NCBI RefSeq assembly: GCF_007655305.1 | Contig: NZ_VLOG01000029.1 | Location: forward strand, 62,001-126,000 | Direction of reading: 5' to 3' | DNA: 64,000 nucleotides | DNA from: Algoriphagus algorifonticola | GTDB lineage: Bacteria > Bacteroidota > Bacteroidia > Cytophagales > Cyclobacteriaceae | In this document: piece after piece, positions 56,851 through 61,337 of the stretch | How the letters are laid out: the number at the start of each line of letters is the position of its first letter | How positions within the stretch are numbered: position 1 is the first letter of the stretch | The notes under the pieces: model-generated | Seen by the model: the letters and a program-made list of their open reading frames with translations, nothing else | Database searches by the model: none | What the model was told of the DNA's origin: nothing | Translations under genes and position numbers: made by a program

Positions 56851-57024
56851 TTAAACCCGGATTATGCATTAGAATCTGTAGTGAGAGATCAAACCGCAAT
56901 AAAATCAAGCATTTGGCGAATGAAGCATAGCAACGCTACGGTGATTGAGCTAAATGCAGCAAAGCGATTGATTTTGAAGCGGTTTGGACTCGTAATAAGA
57001 AGTCTAATGCATATTTCGGGTTAA
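56851..57024. repeat. 174-bp nested palindromic (MITE-like) element
   Basis: The ends are imperfect inverted repeats: 56851-56876 carries TTAA, CCCG and ATGCATTAGA, mirrored at 57001-57024. Further in, AAACCGC (56891-56897) pairs with GCGGTTT (56979-56985), AAAATCAA (56901-56908) with TTGATTTT (56969-56975 region), and GCATTT (56909-56914) with AAATGC (56952-56957). The centre is TAGC-AAC-GCTA (56928-56938). The stem centre lies almost exactly at the middle of the element. There is no ORF. The structure suggests a miniature inverted-repeat element or a long structured RNA. I do not recognise a named family. Confidence 0.7.
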
Positions 57025-57120
57025 AAGAAGTATTGAAGTTGAATTCAAGAGAATATCGTCTGTGAGCATTTTTTACAATTGAACATATGAGGGATTTCAA
57101 ATAAATGTCCTGTCCCTAAT

Positions 57121-57215
57121 TGAGTTTACATTTCCAAAGGGGGATTTGCTTCTTGTCTCCTTCAAAGGTTGCGTTTCAAAAAATACTTCAACCTCGCCTG
57201 AGACATATAAGAAGC
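57121..57215. repeat. Dispersed degenerate intergenic repeat, copy 1
   Basis: Begins TGAGTTTACATTTCCAAA and contains, in order, TTGTCTCC, CTCGCC and CATAT. The same succession is found at 58739-58795, and the first part also at 58329-58351. Confidence 0.5.
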
Positions 57216-57237
57216 ATTGAATTTTAATTCCTGCAAA

Positions 57238-57265
57238 CACCGGACATCGGTCATCTGACACCGGA
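57238..57265. repeat. Degenerate tandem heptamers (CACCGGA type) next to THI5-like stop
   Basis: Four 7-nt units: CACCGGA, CATCGGT, CATCTGA and CACCGGA again. It abuts the stop codon of the minus-strand gene ending at 57268. Confidence 0.6.
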
Positions 57266-57267
57266 CA

Positions 57268-58173
57268 CTAAACTAAGTCAACCCTAATCAAGTCAGAGCT
57301 TTTAAATGCCTGTTTTTCCAATCCTTTGCTTCTTAACCAATCCAAAAAGGTTTGCACAGAATCCAAATCCATTTTTCCCCAAGAATCCTCATTGCCCAAA
57401 TGAGGAGCTGAATACTTGAGGCATTTCAATAGATCTATATCGGCATCATTTTCAGCCAAGTGATTTTTTAGAATGGCAATGGCTTCCTGCGGATTTTCTT
57501 TGGACCAGAGAAACCCCTTTTTGCTGGCTTGAAGAAATTTAGCATAGAGCTCAGGTTTCAAGTCGATTTTCTCCCTGCTTCCAGCAATGACAGGAGAATA
57601 AGAGTAGGGGATGCCGTAATCACTCATTTTGAAATAATTGAACTCATAATTCATTTTTTCGGCAACCACACCTTCCCAATTTATAAAAATCCAGGTTGAG
57701 TCTGCATTCCCCTCAATCAGTCTATCCCAAATGCCTAACTTTTCAGGATAGCTGATTTTCAAATCTCCTTTTCCTCCATCATTCCTAATCATTTCTTTGA
57801 CGATGGCATCTTCGTACTTTGCCTCATATGAAGCGTAAGATTTTCCATCCATATCCTTGGGGGAATTGATGTGGCTTTCTTTTCTTACGGCAATAGCACT
57901 CAGATCTTCCTGAAAAATGGCTGCTATACCCAATAGTGGAAAGCTATTTTCCTTGGTTCTATAGCTGATCAAGCTTTCCATGGGACAAAGAGCCAGATCA
58001 GCTTTACCTAATTCCACTTTTTTAGCAGGTGTGAGCGCATAATCATCTTCAGAAGGACTGATCAAATTCACATCTAGATCATATTCCTTAAAAAAGCCTT
58101 GATTTTGGGCTACAAAAAAGCCGATATGATTGATGTTTGGGGTCCAATCGAGTGCAAGGTTTATTTTCCTCAT
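57268..58173 (-). CDS. THI5/NMT1-like substrate-binding protein without signal peptide
   Basis: 301 residues from the ATG at 58173; an upstream in-frame start adds 14 residues that do not make a signal peptide. 'NLALDWTPNINHIGFFVAQNQGFF' and 'EYDLDVNLISP' identify the NMT1/THI5 family. In fungi, Thi5 makes the thiamine pyrimidine using an active-site His and a CCCFC motif; here the His position reads MESLISY and no CCCFC is present. Bacterial ThiY-type members bind a pyrimidine precursor in the periplasm but need a signal peptide and ABC partners, none of which are seen here. It may be a cytoplasmic binding protein or enzyme; I cannot say which. Confidence 0.75.
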   Translation of the reverse strand: MRKINLALDWTPNINHIGFFVAQNQGFFKEYDLDVNLISPSEDDYALTPAKKVELGKADLALCPMESLISYRTKENSFPLLGIAAIFQEDLSAIAVRKESHINSPKDMDGKSYASYEAKYEDAIVKEMIRNDGGKGDLKISYPEKLGIWDRLIEGNADSTWIFINWEGVVAEKMNYEFNYFKMSDYGIPYSYSPVIAGSREKIDLKPELYAKFLQASKKGFLWSKENPQEAIAILKNHLAENDADIDLLKCLKYSAPHLGNEDSWGKMDLDSVQTFLDWLRSKGLEKQAFKSSDLIRVDLV

Positions 58174-58328
58174 ATTGAAAATATTTTTAGGTTTTGGGAA
58201 TAAAAAAAGATCCACAATAAAGTGAACCTAAAACTAAAAGCACTCCCTTTCAAAAAGGTTTGAAAAAAACCAAGAAATGGAGCGATGAAGAGGATTTTTA
58301 TTAAATGAGTATGTTATTAGTCTTAAAC

Positions 58329-58351
58329 TGAATTTACATTTCCAAACGGGG
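58329..58351. repeat. Dispersed degenerate intergenic repeat, copy 2 (partial)
   Basis: Reads TGAATTTACATTTCCAAA then CGGGG; 21 of 23 bases equal the start of copy 1 at 57121. The later part differs. Confidence 0.5.
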
Positions 58352-58518
58352 AAATAGACACTAATCCAAATGAGGGATTAATACTTTTTCATGAAAACAA
58401 CTTTGTTTTAAAAATCCCTTTCAAACCCTTCCTTGTTTTTCTGGATTTGCCGAGATTTATTTCTTCCATACCTCAGGCATGGTGGAGATAAGCTTTGACT
58501 TTTCACTACCTAGCTTTG

Positions 58519-58531
58519 ATCCCTACGGGAT
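58519..58531. repeat. 13-nt hairpin ATCCC-TAC-GGGAT
   Basis: Perfect 5-bp stem with a 3-nt loop. It is of the same 5-3-5 form as the hairpins at 58568, 58647 and 58973, with a different stem sequence. Confidence 0.6.
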
Positions 58532-58567
58532 TATTTGGAACTAGTAATCTCCAATGATTTACCGAAA

Positions 58568-58614
58568 GTCGCAAAGCGACGATTGATTTTATAGCCAGAG
58601 ATTTTAATCTCTGG
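58568..58614 (+). repeat. Compound hairpin element A
   Basis: GTCGC-AAA-GCGAC (58568-58580), a 14-nt spacer (58581-58594) and CCAGAGATTTTAATCTCTGG (58595-58614), a perfect 9-bp stem with a TT loop. The reverse complement of element B at 58939-58985 has the same layout with other stem sequences. Confidence 0.7.
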
Positions 58615-58646
58615 AAATCTTAAGTTGATAATAATAAATTGAAAGA

Positions 58647-58659
58647 GTCCCATAGGGAC
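58647..58659. repeat. 13-nt hairpin GTCCC-ATA-GGGAC
   Basis: Perfect 5-bp stem and 3-nt loop, 33 bp after compound hairpin A. Confidence 0.6.
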
Positions 58660-58738
58660 GGCCGATATTTAATGTCGACTAATGGTGCCTCATTTTCCTT
58701 ATAGTTGAGCTGCCACTAGAGTATATCTCTTCCTAAAC

Positions 58739-58795
58739 TTAATTTCTATTTCCAAAGAAAAGATTGTCTCCAATCTCGCCGAAGGCATATCTTGT
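58739..58795. repeat. Dispersed degenerate intergenic repeat, copy 3
   Basis: TTAATTTCTATTTCCAAAG, then TTGTCTCC, CTCGCC and CATAT in the same order as in copy 1 at 57121. Confidence 0.5.
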
Positions 58796-58814
58796 TTAAT
58801 ATCTTCTATTCCAA

Positions 58815-58861
58815 TATTTCGCCGCAGGCCGTATTTCTATTCATTTTTATTGTATTACCTA
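58815..58861. repeat. 47-bp direct repeat, copy 1
   Basis: TATTTCGCCGCAGG followed by GTATTTCTATT and TGTATT. Copy 2 lies 198 bp downstream at 59013-59059 with about eight differences. The two flank compound hairpin B. Confidence 0.7.
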
Positions 58862-58938
58862 CCCATCTTGCTGGCAATGAGATATTATTTCCAAACCAAA
58901 CTCCTTCGCCAGCGCTGGGAAAAAGGGTTGATTAAGGT

Positions 58939-58985
58939 CCAGGGGTTAAAACCCCTGGCTATTTTATTTTTCGCTCCTTTGGAGC
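58939..58985 (-). repeat. Compound hairpin element B (inverted relative to A)
   Basis: CCAGGGGTTAAAACCCCTGG (58939-58958), a 14-nt spacer, and GCTCC-TTT-GGAGC (58973-58985). Read on the minus strand it matches element A in order, stem lengths and spacer length. The CCAGRGRTT stem differences are compensated on the other arm. Confidence 0.7.
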
Positions 58986-59012
58986 TTTTGATGGGTGACG
59001 GTTACTTAGGTG

Positions 59013-59059
59013 TATTTCGCCGCAGGAAGTATTTCTATTTATTTCCACTGTATTTCTTA
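59013..59059. repeat. 47-bp direct repeat, copy 2
   Basis: Matches 58815-58861 with a few changes (GGAAG for GGCCG, and small differences at the end). It lies 10 bp before the stop of the GH3 gene. Confidence 0.7.
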
Positions 59060-59069
59060 AAAACTCCAT

Positions 59070-61337
59070 TTACTGAATAGAAATCTGAGCCCCAAGACTG
59101 GTATTCGAACTTCCACCAACATAAATGTCAAAAGCTCCTGGCTCTACAATATAATTCCCCTGATTGTCATAAAAACCCAAATGACTTTCATCCAATTCAA
59201 AAGTAATTGTTCGAGTCTGTCCTGCTTCAATCAGTGTTTTTTCAAAAGCCTTCAGTTCCTTGTTGGGTCTGGTTACCGATGCCACGATATCATGAATATA
59301 AAGCTGAATCACCTCTTCACCAGGTCGCTCACTTTCATTTTTTACATCTACCGAAACAGTCACTTTTCTTCCCTCATTAGAAACTTTCAGGCCGGAATAG
59401 GTAAAATTACTATAGCTCAAACCATGTCCGAAGGGATAGAGCGGATCATTGCTGATGTCAGAGTAATGGGACCAGAAAACCACATCACCTCCCGGAGGAG
59501 TTGGTCTTCCTGTGCTTTTTTGGTTGTAATAAATGGGCACCTGTCCCACAGATCTTGGGAATGACATAGGTAGCTTACCGGAAGGATTATAGTCTCCAAA
59601 AAGCACTTGCGCAATCGCATTGCCACTTTGACTTCCCAAATGCCAAACCTGAAGGATAGCAGGGATATTTGCATCCGCCCAACTCAAATCCAGCGGACGA
59701 CCACTCATATTGACTAACACTGATTTTGGGTTAACCTTTTGGATTTCCTCCATCAGCTCTTGCTGCACTTCCGGCAAACCAATATCAGACCGACTTCTTG
59801 CTTCCCCTGATTGAAAACCATTTTCTCCCAAAACCAAAAGCACTACATCCGCATTGGCAGCCACTCTTTTTGCTTCCGCAAAGCCAGTCTTGTCATCGGT
59901 ATTAATTTTTACCTCTGTGATAAAAGCCGTAGGGCCAAGGATCAAATCAGCTCCTTTCGCATATTGATAGCTGTTTCCGGGATAGTTTTGCAAACCTTCT
60001 AAAACCGAAACAGCAGAATTGCTAACTGCCTCTGCTCTCCAGTTCCCAATCGGACTGTCTTTATCATCTGCCAAGTCACCTATGACGGCGATTCGCATTC
60101 CCTCTTTCTTCAATGGAAGAATCTGCTCTTCATTTTTTAGCAGAACAATGGATTTTTTGGCCATTTCCAATACTCCCTGAATATGTTCTTCACTTCCAAT
60201 GATCTCTTTTTCTCTTTCATCATTGCAATACTTGTAGGGATCAGCAAATAAGCCCAATTCGTATTTGATTCTCAGAATTCTCCGAACAGCGTCATCTATC
60301 AGCTTTTCATCAACTTCTCCCGATTCTACCAACTTCTTTAATTCATTCAGATAGATATAAGACTCCATGTCCATATCCGAACCAGCAGTTACAGCATAGG
60401 CGGCAGCAGCAGCACTATCGATCGCAAATCCATGAGGAATCATCTCAGCGATAGAACCCCAATCTGAAACCACAAAGCCATCAAATCCCCATTTTTCCTT
60501 GAGTATTTCTCTTTGTAAAAAAGCATTGCCAGTGGCTGGAATTCCATTCAAATCATTGAAGGCATTCATAAATGTTCTTGCCCCGGCATCCAAAGCAGCT
60601 TTGAAAGGAGGTAAAATGATATTGTACAAAGTGGAGGTACCTACATCCACCGAATTGTAATCCCTACCGCTTTCGGAAAAACCATATCCTGCAAAATGCT
60701 TCACGCAGGCAGCTAATGTCAAAGGATCCGAAAGATTTTCTCCCTGATAGCCTTTCACTCGGGCAATGGCAATCTGTCCGCCCAAATAAGGATCTTCCCC
60801 GGCACCTTCCATCACTCTTCCCCAACGTGCATCCCTGCCAATATCTACCATGGGAGCAAAAGTCCAGTTGATCCCAGCAGCGGCAGCCTCTCTGGCACCA
60901 ATTTCGGAGGATCTACGGATGGCTTCCATATCCCAACTTGCAGCTTCTGCCAAAGGAATGGGGCTCATGGTCTGAAACCCATGAATCATATCATAGCCTA
61001 TAATCAGAGGTATGCCCAAGCGACTTTCTTCCACTGCGATTTTTTGTACTTTTCTCACTTCTTCCACTCCAGTCACATTGAGCATGGAGCCTACCAAACC
61101 CTTTCGAAGATTTTCATATTTCATGGCCGCAGCCCCTTCCTGGGGAGTAGGTCCGGTTATTTCCCAGAAACCATTGTACTGATTCATCTGACCTATTTTT
61201 TCTTCCAAAGTCATGATGGATAGCAAACTGTCAATATTCTCTTCATATGGGCTTTCTGAAGAGCTGGAACTTGAGTTGCTGCCTGAGTTGCAGGCAAAAA
61301 TCAAAGCAAGTAAAAGGAAGAAGGGTATATTTTTCAT
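59070..61337 (-). CDS. bglX: GH3 beta-glucosidase lipoprotein (BglX-type)
   Basis: 755 residues with a lipobox (LLLALIFACNSG, Cys16) and a Ser-rich linker. The GH3 N-terminal TIM domain has 'IPLIIGYDMIHGFQT', 'FAPMVDIGRDARWGRVMEGAGEDPYL' and the catalytic nucleophile Asp in 'GFDGFVVSDWGS' (~290); the C-terminal sandwich follows, then a fibronectin III-like domain (~650-755; 'YPFGHGLSYSNFTYSGLKV'). Length and order match E. coli periplasmic BglX. It would cleave terminal beta-glucosides at the periplasmic or outer-membrane face. It seems monocistronic and stands beside a repeat-rich gap. Confidence 0.92.
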   Translation of the reverse strand: MKNIPFFLLLALIFACNSGSNSSSSSSESPYEENIDSLLSIMTLEEKIGQMNQYNGFWEITGPTPQEGAAAMKYENLRKGLVGSMLNVTGVEEVRKVQKIAVEESRLGIPLIIGYDMIHGFQTMSPIPLAEAASWDMEAIRRSSEIGAREAAAAGINWTFAPMVDIGRDARWGRVMEGAGEDPYLGGQIAIARVKGYQGENLSDPLTLAACVKHFAGYGFSESGRDYNSVDVGTSTLYNIILPPFKAALDAGARTFMNAFNDLNGIPATGNAFLQREILKEKWGFDGFVVSDWGSIAEMIPHGFAIDSAAAAAYAVTAGSDMDMESYIYLNELKKLVESGEVDEKLIDDAVRRILRIKYELGLFADPYKYCNDEREKEIIGSEEHIQGVLEMAKKSIVLLKNEEQILPLKKEGMRIAVIGDLADDKDSPIGNWRAEAVSNSAVSVLEGLQNYPGNSYQYAKGADLILGPTAFITEVKINTDDKTGFAEAKRVAANADVVLLVLGENGFQSGEARSRSDIGLPEVQQELMEEIQKVNPKSVLVNMSGRPLDLSWADANIPAILQVWHLGSQSGNAIAQVLFGDYNPSGKLPMSFPRSVGQVPIYYNQKSTGRPTPPGGDVVFWSHYSDISNDPLYPFGHGLSYSNFTYSGLKVSNEGRKVTVSVDVKNESERPGEEVIQLYIHDIVASVTRPNKELKAFEKTLIEAGQTRTITFELDESHLGFYDNQGNYIVEPGAFDIYVGGSSNTSLGAQISIQ

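Follow-up and report, generated by a model that had tools for sequence, protein, structure and literature searches.

Compound hairpins in an Algoriphagus genome as probable REP-like mobile DNA linked to subclass 1.2 TnpA_Y1 transposase genes

In a stretch of 64,000 nucleotides from Algoriphagus algorifonticola (hereafter, the window), one intergenic gap contains two oppositely oriented compound hairpins, elements A and B. Our preferred reading, to which we assign a probability of roughly three in four, is that these elements are REP-like mobile DNA and that element A is a solo right-end unit of a locus encoding a TnpA_Y1 transposase of subclass 1.2. The observations behind it are the sequences, their copies, the covariation of the stems, a linkage of element and gene that holds in both directions, and, at a single site in another genus, the presence or absence of the element together with its partial erosion. 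Subclass 1.2 TnpA would be the protein that binds, cuts and moves the units. For element B, only the architecture that it has in common with A and its similarity to an Rfam family suggest the same reading.

Two compound hairpins in one intergenic gap

The gap that holds elements A and B is bordered by two minus-strand frames, one of 315 codons (57268-58215) and one of 755 codons (59070-61337); judging by eye, we take the latter to be a beta-glucosidase-like gene. Read on the plus strand, element A consists of GTCGC-AAA-GCGAC, a 14-nt spacer and CCAGAGATT-TT-AATCTCTGG, while element B has the inverse order, with CCAGGGGTT-AA-AACCCCTGG followed by a spacer of the same length and GCTCC-TTT-GGAGC; the compound hairpins are accordingly assigned to the minus (58568-58614) and plus (58939-58985) strands (Table 1). 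A sequence-only reading of the window had described these parts, their lengths, order and positions, and in this it was accurate to the letter. It had, however, drawn the limits of element A too narrowly: the unit is longer and includes an additional small hairpin that had been missed.

The exact, perfectly paired geometry (9-2-9, 14 nt, 5-3-5) occurs at two places in the 64 kb, which are elements A and B only, and was not found in 150 first-order Markov resamples of the window. A looser geometry scan gives 16 places in the window, compared with an average of 3.6 over 10 resamples; it is therefore the exact geometry that is informative. A broad pattern of linker and stem was dropped, having matched 1045 places compared with 615 for a reversed control pattern. 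When folded as single-stranded DNA, the region of element A has z scores of -3.8 (minus strand) and -3.6 (plus strand), and that of element B has a z score of -2.2 on either strand.

Table 1. Positions of the proposed units, their parts and the Rfam matches in the window
Feature	Positions	Strand	Basis
Element A unit, about 105 bp, three hairpins	58567..58671	-	BLAST homologues in this genome and the same genus, common borders
First small hairpin of unit A, GTCCC-TAT-GGGAC	58647..58659	-	Sequence, folding, homologue alignment
Large hairpin of unit A, 9-2-9	58595..58614	-	Sequence, folding, geometry scan, covariation
Linker of unit A, 14 nt, CTATAAAATCAATC on the minus strand	58581..58594	-	Recurrent C(T/A)A start in relatives
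Second small hairpin of unit A, GTCGC-TTT-GCGAC	58568..58580	-	Sequence, folding, covariation
RF01687 match, 28.1 bits, E 1.1e-3 (element A)	58567..58614	-	Rfam scan of 57000-60000
Element B unit, second subfamily, beginning with palindrome CCAGCGCTGG at 58909-58918	58908..58993	+	13 full-length homologues aligned
Large hairpin of unit B, 9-2-9	58939..58958	+	Sequence, folding, geometry scan, covariation
Linker of unit B, 14 nt	58959..58972	+	Sequence, homologue alignment
Small hairpin of unit B, GCTCC-TTT-GGAGC	58973..58985	+	Sequence, covariation
RF01687 match, 35.5 bits, E 1.1e-5 (element B)	58939..58986	+	Rfam scan of 57000-60000

Subfamilies and copies of the elements

Elements A and B had been taken for two copies of one element. 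Judged by their separate homologues, they are instead members of two different repeat subfamilies, which also rules out the pair as a single inverted-repeat unit. Using the window region as a BLAST query, we found A-like units with common borders on contigs C43, C4 (twice) and C5 of this genome. With a covariance model of 23 elements, this genome's own copies included, and 150 of 1588 candidates scored, we identified at least 33 places in the genome at E up to 1; at least 12 of these have E < 1e-5. This is consistent with the REPtron feature of short palindromic elements present in several intergenic copies, although so low a copy number counts against the REP-like reading. Sorted by eye, the matches comprise (i) A-type units (GTCCC...CCAGAGATT...GTCGC); (ii) B-type units (CCAGCGCTGG...GCTCC); and (iii) a third type with ATGCC-TAC-GGCAT. 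The expectation that other copies with the same 14-nt spacer exist was thus correct. Fourteen of the 15 best-scoring places inspected do not overlap any frame of at least 100 codons; the exception is element B itself, located inside a 123-codon stop-to-stop frame that we take as spurious. A-type units without a gene (C22, C43, C62, C5) are more numerous than the two gene copies on C4.

Within the genus, A homologues were detected by BLAST at six places in four of 30 genomes, and B-type units in nine of 72 genomes, this one counted. The latter occupy 28 places, of which 13 were aligned full-length, the others being partial matches.

Repeat matches are located at or very near the ends of contigs C5, C36, C37, C40, C55 and C57; the repeats have therefore probably caused breaks in the assembly, so that the copy number is an underestimate. 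In several copies, a GC-rich palindrome (CCCGCCC..GGTGGGG or CCTGCC..GGCGGGG) is inserted at a shared position on the large hairpin's 3' side, which looks like a preferred insertion site (L046 on C4, at about 1365-1395, 2345-2375, 2470-2500 and 2747-2778; L024, L025; L379). The window also contains a second repeat family of about 47 nt (58760-58861 and 59013-59059), with the core TATTTCGCCGCAGG..GTATTTCTATT (also TATCTTGCCGAAGGCATATCTTG) and a tiny GCC-GAA/GCA-GGC palindrome, which forms long arrays on C24 (L047, 1570-2500) and elsewhere.

Covariation of the stems

From the two elements alone, it had been proposed that the stems carry compensatory changes with pairing kept, and that such covariation implies something that preserves the folded structure. 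Homologues picked by BLAST similarity alone confirm the covariation and support the interpretation. Among the 11 rows of the A family, pairing holds in 96.4% of 194 cells, with eight two-sided changes, one wobble change and seven unpaired cells; among the 13 rows of the B family, it holds in 97.8% of 182 cells, with eight two-sided changes, no wobble and four unpaired cells. Wobble thus accounts for one of the 376 cells pooled. None of 500 shuffles reached the observed paired percentage, two-sided cell count or covariation score, for A and B alike. Two coarser measures were matched more often, namely how many pairs show a two-sided change (reached by 185 of 500 shuffles for B and by three of 500 for A) and how many further pair types occur (70 of 500 for B, 46 of 500 for A). 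A wider alignment of 23 rows shows 98.4% pairing and 89 two-sided changes; as its rows were selected for pairing, its covariation is inflated, and the BLAST-chosen sets are the fair test.

Similarity to Acido-Lenti-1

Both elements match Rfam family RF01687 (Acido-Lenti-1) at scores below its gathering threshold of 37 bits (Table 1). With 150 of 432 candidates scored, the family has at least 34 matches in this genome at E up to 10, one of which exceeds the cutoff (C24, 42.3 bits). A 2010 paper lists Acido-Lenti-1 among candidate RNAs, with Acidobacteria and Lentisphaerae as its carriers (PMC2864571), and Rfam classes it as gene/sRNA. According to the available text of a 2026 paper, its function is little known and a regulation of nearby proteases is suggested (PMC13298647); the name also occurs in PMC10059132. 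In the open-licence literature, the only co-mention of Acido-Lenti-1 and 'transposase' that we found is in PMC2864571. RF01687 and elements A and B have a two-hairpin architecture in common; compared with Acido-Lenti-1 as described in the available text of PMC2864571, the elements studied here occur in another phylum, adjoin a transposase gene and include an extra hairpin outside the model.

The transposase genes

The check for a REP/RAYT-like system that the sequence-only reading had recommended was positive in that IS200-like transposase genes are present, two of them with the element A family on their 3' side. Seven Y1_Tnp matches were found in this genome, none on the contig of the window. 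Two of the genes are neighbours on C4 and differ at 12 of 153 residues. An A unit follows each of these tnpA genes, its first hairpin 16 nt past the gene end, and a unit of the third type, in reverse orientation, precedes each. Elsewhere in the genus, such a gene stands beside the unit at three of the six A-homologue places, the first hairpin being located 13 nt past the last codon; one of these three genes is split between reading frames. At the fourth place, a weak Y1 match lies some 1.1 kb off, and the remaining two have no Y1 match. For element A, the two C4 genes and these three places display the REPtron feature of a TnpA_Y1 gene flanked by cognate elements. For element B, none of the 28 B-type places has a Y1 gene within 1.5 kb, nor has any of the six B-type places covered in the examination of the A-homologue loci.

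All three proteins tested match Pfam Y1_Tnp and exceed the cutoff of the NCBIfam IS200/IS605 model, in which the subclasses are not separated; two of the three match the NCBIfam REP-associated model with scores under its cutoff. Solved IS200/IS605 transposases are matched by a profile of 16 relatives. The proteins contain the motifs DHVH, WQ and YI-NQ--HH, the signature of TnpA_Y1 subclass 1.2, and by this Y---Q--HH motif fall outside the class 2 (TnpA_REP) subclasses. Table 1 of Quentin et al. 2018 enters subclass 1.2 as REP 'no', and the available text describes it as new and without IS properties (PMC6006769).

A tree was computed from 66 rows, 65 of them different since one C4 gene was entered twice, after rows shorter than 100 aa had been dropped (L078 and L255 among them). 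Twelve IS200-type (subclass 1.1) rows are separated from the rest with support of 100/99, accompanied by long-branch warnings; the genes studied here are thus set apart from subclass 1.1 by tree group as well as by motif. Genes that adjoin compound elements fall into two clades: clade I, with 11 rows and an MGQSL-like start, and a second clade of five rows, two of which are the C4 gene entered twice. In row L086, HH is replaced by HY.

Two further subclass 1.2 genes of this genome (L057, 1126-1593 on C9; L058, 898-1341 on C33) have their own, different hairpin sets, the C9 gene being surrounded by GCTTC-TCC-GAAGC hairpins. At L275 (1577-2049), a subclass 1.2 gene split between frames adjoins an RF01687 match; its hairpins are intact, while the transposase is decaying.

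Linkage of element and gene in both directions

Among 148 genomes of the family, RF01687 was detected in 55 (E up to 0.01) and Y1_Tnp in 120 (E up to 1e-5). A Y1 gene is present in 52 of the 55 RF01687-positive genomes, compared with 68 of the 93 RF01687-negative ones; the three genomes with RF01687 and no Y1 match are G057, G099 and G119. Proceeding from element to gene, we found a Y1 ORF within about 1.5 kb of nine of the 29 best RF01687 loci outside this genome (one of these ORFs is weak and one is in two pieces). In a phylum-wide draw of 395 genomes, 49 contained RF01687 (E up to 1e-5), and outside the family a subclass 1.2 gene, in one case split, lies within about 1.5 kb of six of the 29 best loci. 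The chance expectation, estimated from about four Y1 genes per 5 Mb, is approximately 0.1 per set of 29.

In the opposite direction, a clade-I search yielded 30 best loci, 27 with E < 1e-57, and RF01687 (E up to 0.05) was found beside half of them (15/30; 8/15 and 7/15). Excluding five genomes that had been selected by the element leaves ten of 25 loci with RF01687, which is absent at the other 15 of these independent loci. RF01687 was not found beside any of 14 subclass 1.1 loci, which were picked by score and of which 12 were placed in the tree. In a plasmid search for subclass 1.2 genes, no acidobacterial record appeared among the matches listed (40 of 214).

Simple hairpins around Y1 genes

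A larger set of 80 subclass 1.2 loci, 20 of which were submitted for the tree, consists of the best 80 of 585; the loci are interrelated and come mostly from Bacteroidota, with a few from Ignavibacteria, Balneolaceae and other groups. Strict compound elements reach 2.34 per 10 kb within 500 bp of these genes, compared with at most 0.15 beyond 2 kb, and only ten of the 80 loci have one within 1.5 kb, some of them weak. Counted alone at the same loci, the 5-3-5 hairpin reaches 56.8 per 10 kb within 250 bp, compared with about 3 beyond 2 kb. Among 66 loci with full flanks, 61 have a 5-3-5 hairpin within 500 bp, and 35 have one on both sides. In the intergenic DNA of the 80 loci, the density is 71.6 per 10 kb beside subclass 1.2 genes and 5.5 beside other genes. 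The spacing of successive hairpins peaks at 50-54 nt (71 of 211), and their orientation as judged by the loop is mirrored, with 90 reverse, 31 forward and 30 undecided upstream, and 81 forward, 41 reverse and 45 undecided downstream.

At the ends of known insertion sequences, small hairpins of this sort are expected beside the gene. A 5-3-5 hairpin lies no more than 500 bp away at ten of the 14 subclass 1.1 loci, where the density in the nearest 250 bp is 32.7 per 10 kb; in a second subclass 1.2 set, drawn from the family, the corresponding values are 11 of 16 loci and 22.5 per 10 kb. Single 5-3-5 hairpins mark Y1 loci in general and, since they stand beside subclass 1.1 genes too, only the compound RF01687 form separates the classes here. 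The GT[AG]G foot of canonical REPs is absent, the base before the stem being G in 1-2% of 314 hairpins; in downstream copies, T--C is favoured at the position before the stem. Near the genes, stems with a single mismatch show a weak excess of G-T over A-C (18 versus 4 above background), which would fit RNA and the recognition of one DNA strand alike.

Presence and erosion at one orthologous site

For the window copies, a comparison with empty sites failed: the flanking genes match only 67-74% and lie at different places in the genus. Because these genes are so poorly matched in their own genus, we turned to another genus of the same class, in which one orthologous site, between what we take by eye to be two cell-wall genes, was followed through 59 genomes and inspected at 30 loci. 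Three of the 30 species lack the element, with clean gaps of 20-22 nt; the other 27 have some element, in two cases of another type. Among these 27, the small hairpin retains the perfect 5-3-5 form in 15 and is imperfect in 12; by eye, about half of the latter keep a 4-bp stem, the others being broken, part-deleted or absent. The large hairpin of the common type has a stem of at least 6 bp in 18 of 25, and in some its letters have changed together (L338, L340). A piece of about 50 nt of this element matches many other places in its genus.

The two loci with a different type (AACCC-GAA-GGGTT; L332 and L352), one of which (L352) also contains a common-type remnant, suggest repeated insertion at one place. 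That a discrete unit is gained or lost, and that it decays in part, is in keeping with mobile insertions. The persistence of the large hairpin is also compatible with selection on the structure, with insertion more than once or with inheritance from long ago.

Discussion

Several known systems resemble the one described here. REP/BIME elements with RAYT (TnpA_REP), as in E. coli, are likewise short, dispersed intergenic hairpins in pairs and arrays and, in the available accounts, flank a low-copy HuH-Y1 gene with more than one subfamily per gene locus (PMC6006769, PMC8266576). Unlike these, the present hairpins lack the GT[AG]G foot and are often paired about 50 nt apart, A and B carry a large hairpin inside the unit, and the transposase is of subclass 1.2, the one that Table 1 of PMC6006769 marks REP 'no'. 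Subclass 2.6 (mostly Bacteroidetes) and class 3 TnpA_Y1 genes, described in the available text of the same paper as having 'atypical secondary structures', are also accompanied by genome-repeated hairpins other than GTAG; their tyrosine motifs (YIH[QN]NP and YV[VI][AENY]EQ) differ from the YI-NQ--HH found here. Palindromic CGTC-tagged REPs, reported in Bacteroidetes too, and the TIR-flanked TIRYT genes provide a further parallel in that the TIRs flank Y1 genes; as described in the available text, however, these REPs have 8-9 bp stems, loops of mostly 4-5 nt and no adjoining transposase (PMC3733652). The present elements, with 5-bp stems, 3-nt loops and a link to tnpA, lie outside the CGTC REP definition.

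Insertion sequences of the IS200/IS605 type (subclass 1.1) have a homologous HuH-Y1 transposase and small hairpins near the gene, and the elements could be remnants of one, left as end fragments after the gene had decayed or departed. The matches of the three tested proteins and of the 16-relative profile to IS200/IS605 transposases speak for this, as does a unit that flanks its gene in the manner of an IS end; moreover, the small hairpins beside subclass 1.1 genes weaken the REP-like reading and raise this alternative. We nevertheless consider it unlikely, given a protein group and motif distinct from the 12 subclass 1.1 rows (with the reservation about long branches), the lack of RF01687 at all 14 subclass 1.1 loci, the excess of solo A-type units over gene copies, and the different, mirrored unit types on the two sides of the C4 genes, which recur in arrays. 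As to gene and ends moving as one unit, we found the two tandem C4 copies and solo ends elsewhere.

That the elements specify a structured small RNA, transcribed and acting through its two hairpins (for example by binding a protein or in trans), with the nearby transposase incidental, appears to us somewhat less likely still. The Rfam class, the sub-threshold matches of A and B, the real covariation, the weak G-T excess and the protease regulation suggested in the available text of PMC13298647 can be cited in its favour, and the frequent retention of the large hairpin at the orthologous site raises it slightly. Against it stand the two-way linkage to one transposase subclass, the opposite orientation of A and B in a single gap, a promoter scan at chance level (two found versus 2.5), the near absence of wobble intermediates in BLAST-chosen copies, and an orthologous site at which the element is missing from three of 30 species and the small hairpin is imperfect in 12 of 27. 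We likewise regard it as improbable that the hairpins are bidirectional terminators or stabilizers of mRNA 3' ends that spread through their usefulness between genes. The region does contain five terminator-like sites where 0.8 are expected, four of them these hairpins, and the elements lie downstream of the 59070-61337 gene; most tails, however, are of mixed bases rather than clean T runs, and multi-hairpin units with common borders across species would not be expected of terminators. Because of these tails, and of a hairpin density beside the 80 subclass 1.2 genes that is 13 times that at other gene ends of the same loci, termination was rejected as the main function.

IS200/IS605 and REP transposases act on single-stranded hairpins and cleave near their feet, as the available text of PMC8266576 describes. 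If the elements are REP-like mobile DNA, their short 5-3-5 hairpins would fold when the strand is single, for example in the lagging-strand template, and TnpA would bind them, cutting and rejoining beside them by means of its tyrosine. The end units might then be copied or moved, free of the gene, into intergenic DNA, as proposed for REP/BIME and TnpA_REP, and many fixed copies would subsequently decay. Such binding and cutting of the units would lead to covariation without fixed letters, mirrored ends, arrays by the gene and solo copies; compensatory stem changes would arise because a unit moves on only while its hairpins pair, whatever the letters.

Extending this beyond the window, we think it fairly probable that subclass 1.2 supplies the transposase for a large and unrecognised class of REP-like elements built from 5-3-5 hairpin pairs, in several lineages with a large variable hairpin inside, and that Acido-Lenti-1, at least in Bacteroidota, is their DNA rather than an RNA gene. 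In the open-licence literature, we found no paper in which REP-like elements are connected with either Acido-Lenti-1 or subclass 1.2. RepRanger (2025) gives REP counts for some Bacteroidota, and its main text does not contain the word transposase (PMC12306157); the available text of Nunvar 2010 does not mention Bacteroid-, Cytophag-, Flavobacter- or Acidobacter- (PMC2817692).

If this is true, Acido-Lenti-1 ncRNA annotations in Bacteroidota should be understood as mobile-element DNA, and arguments that the copies regulate adjoining genes (such as that in the available text of PMC13298647) would need a new basis; strong covariation of stems is, by itself, no proof of RNA. An orphan Rfam family would gain an identity that can be tested, and a likely substrate would be at hand for an orphan subclass of transposases. 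As subclass 1.2 is close to the IS200 transposases, the system may also show an insertion sequence turning into a REP system.
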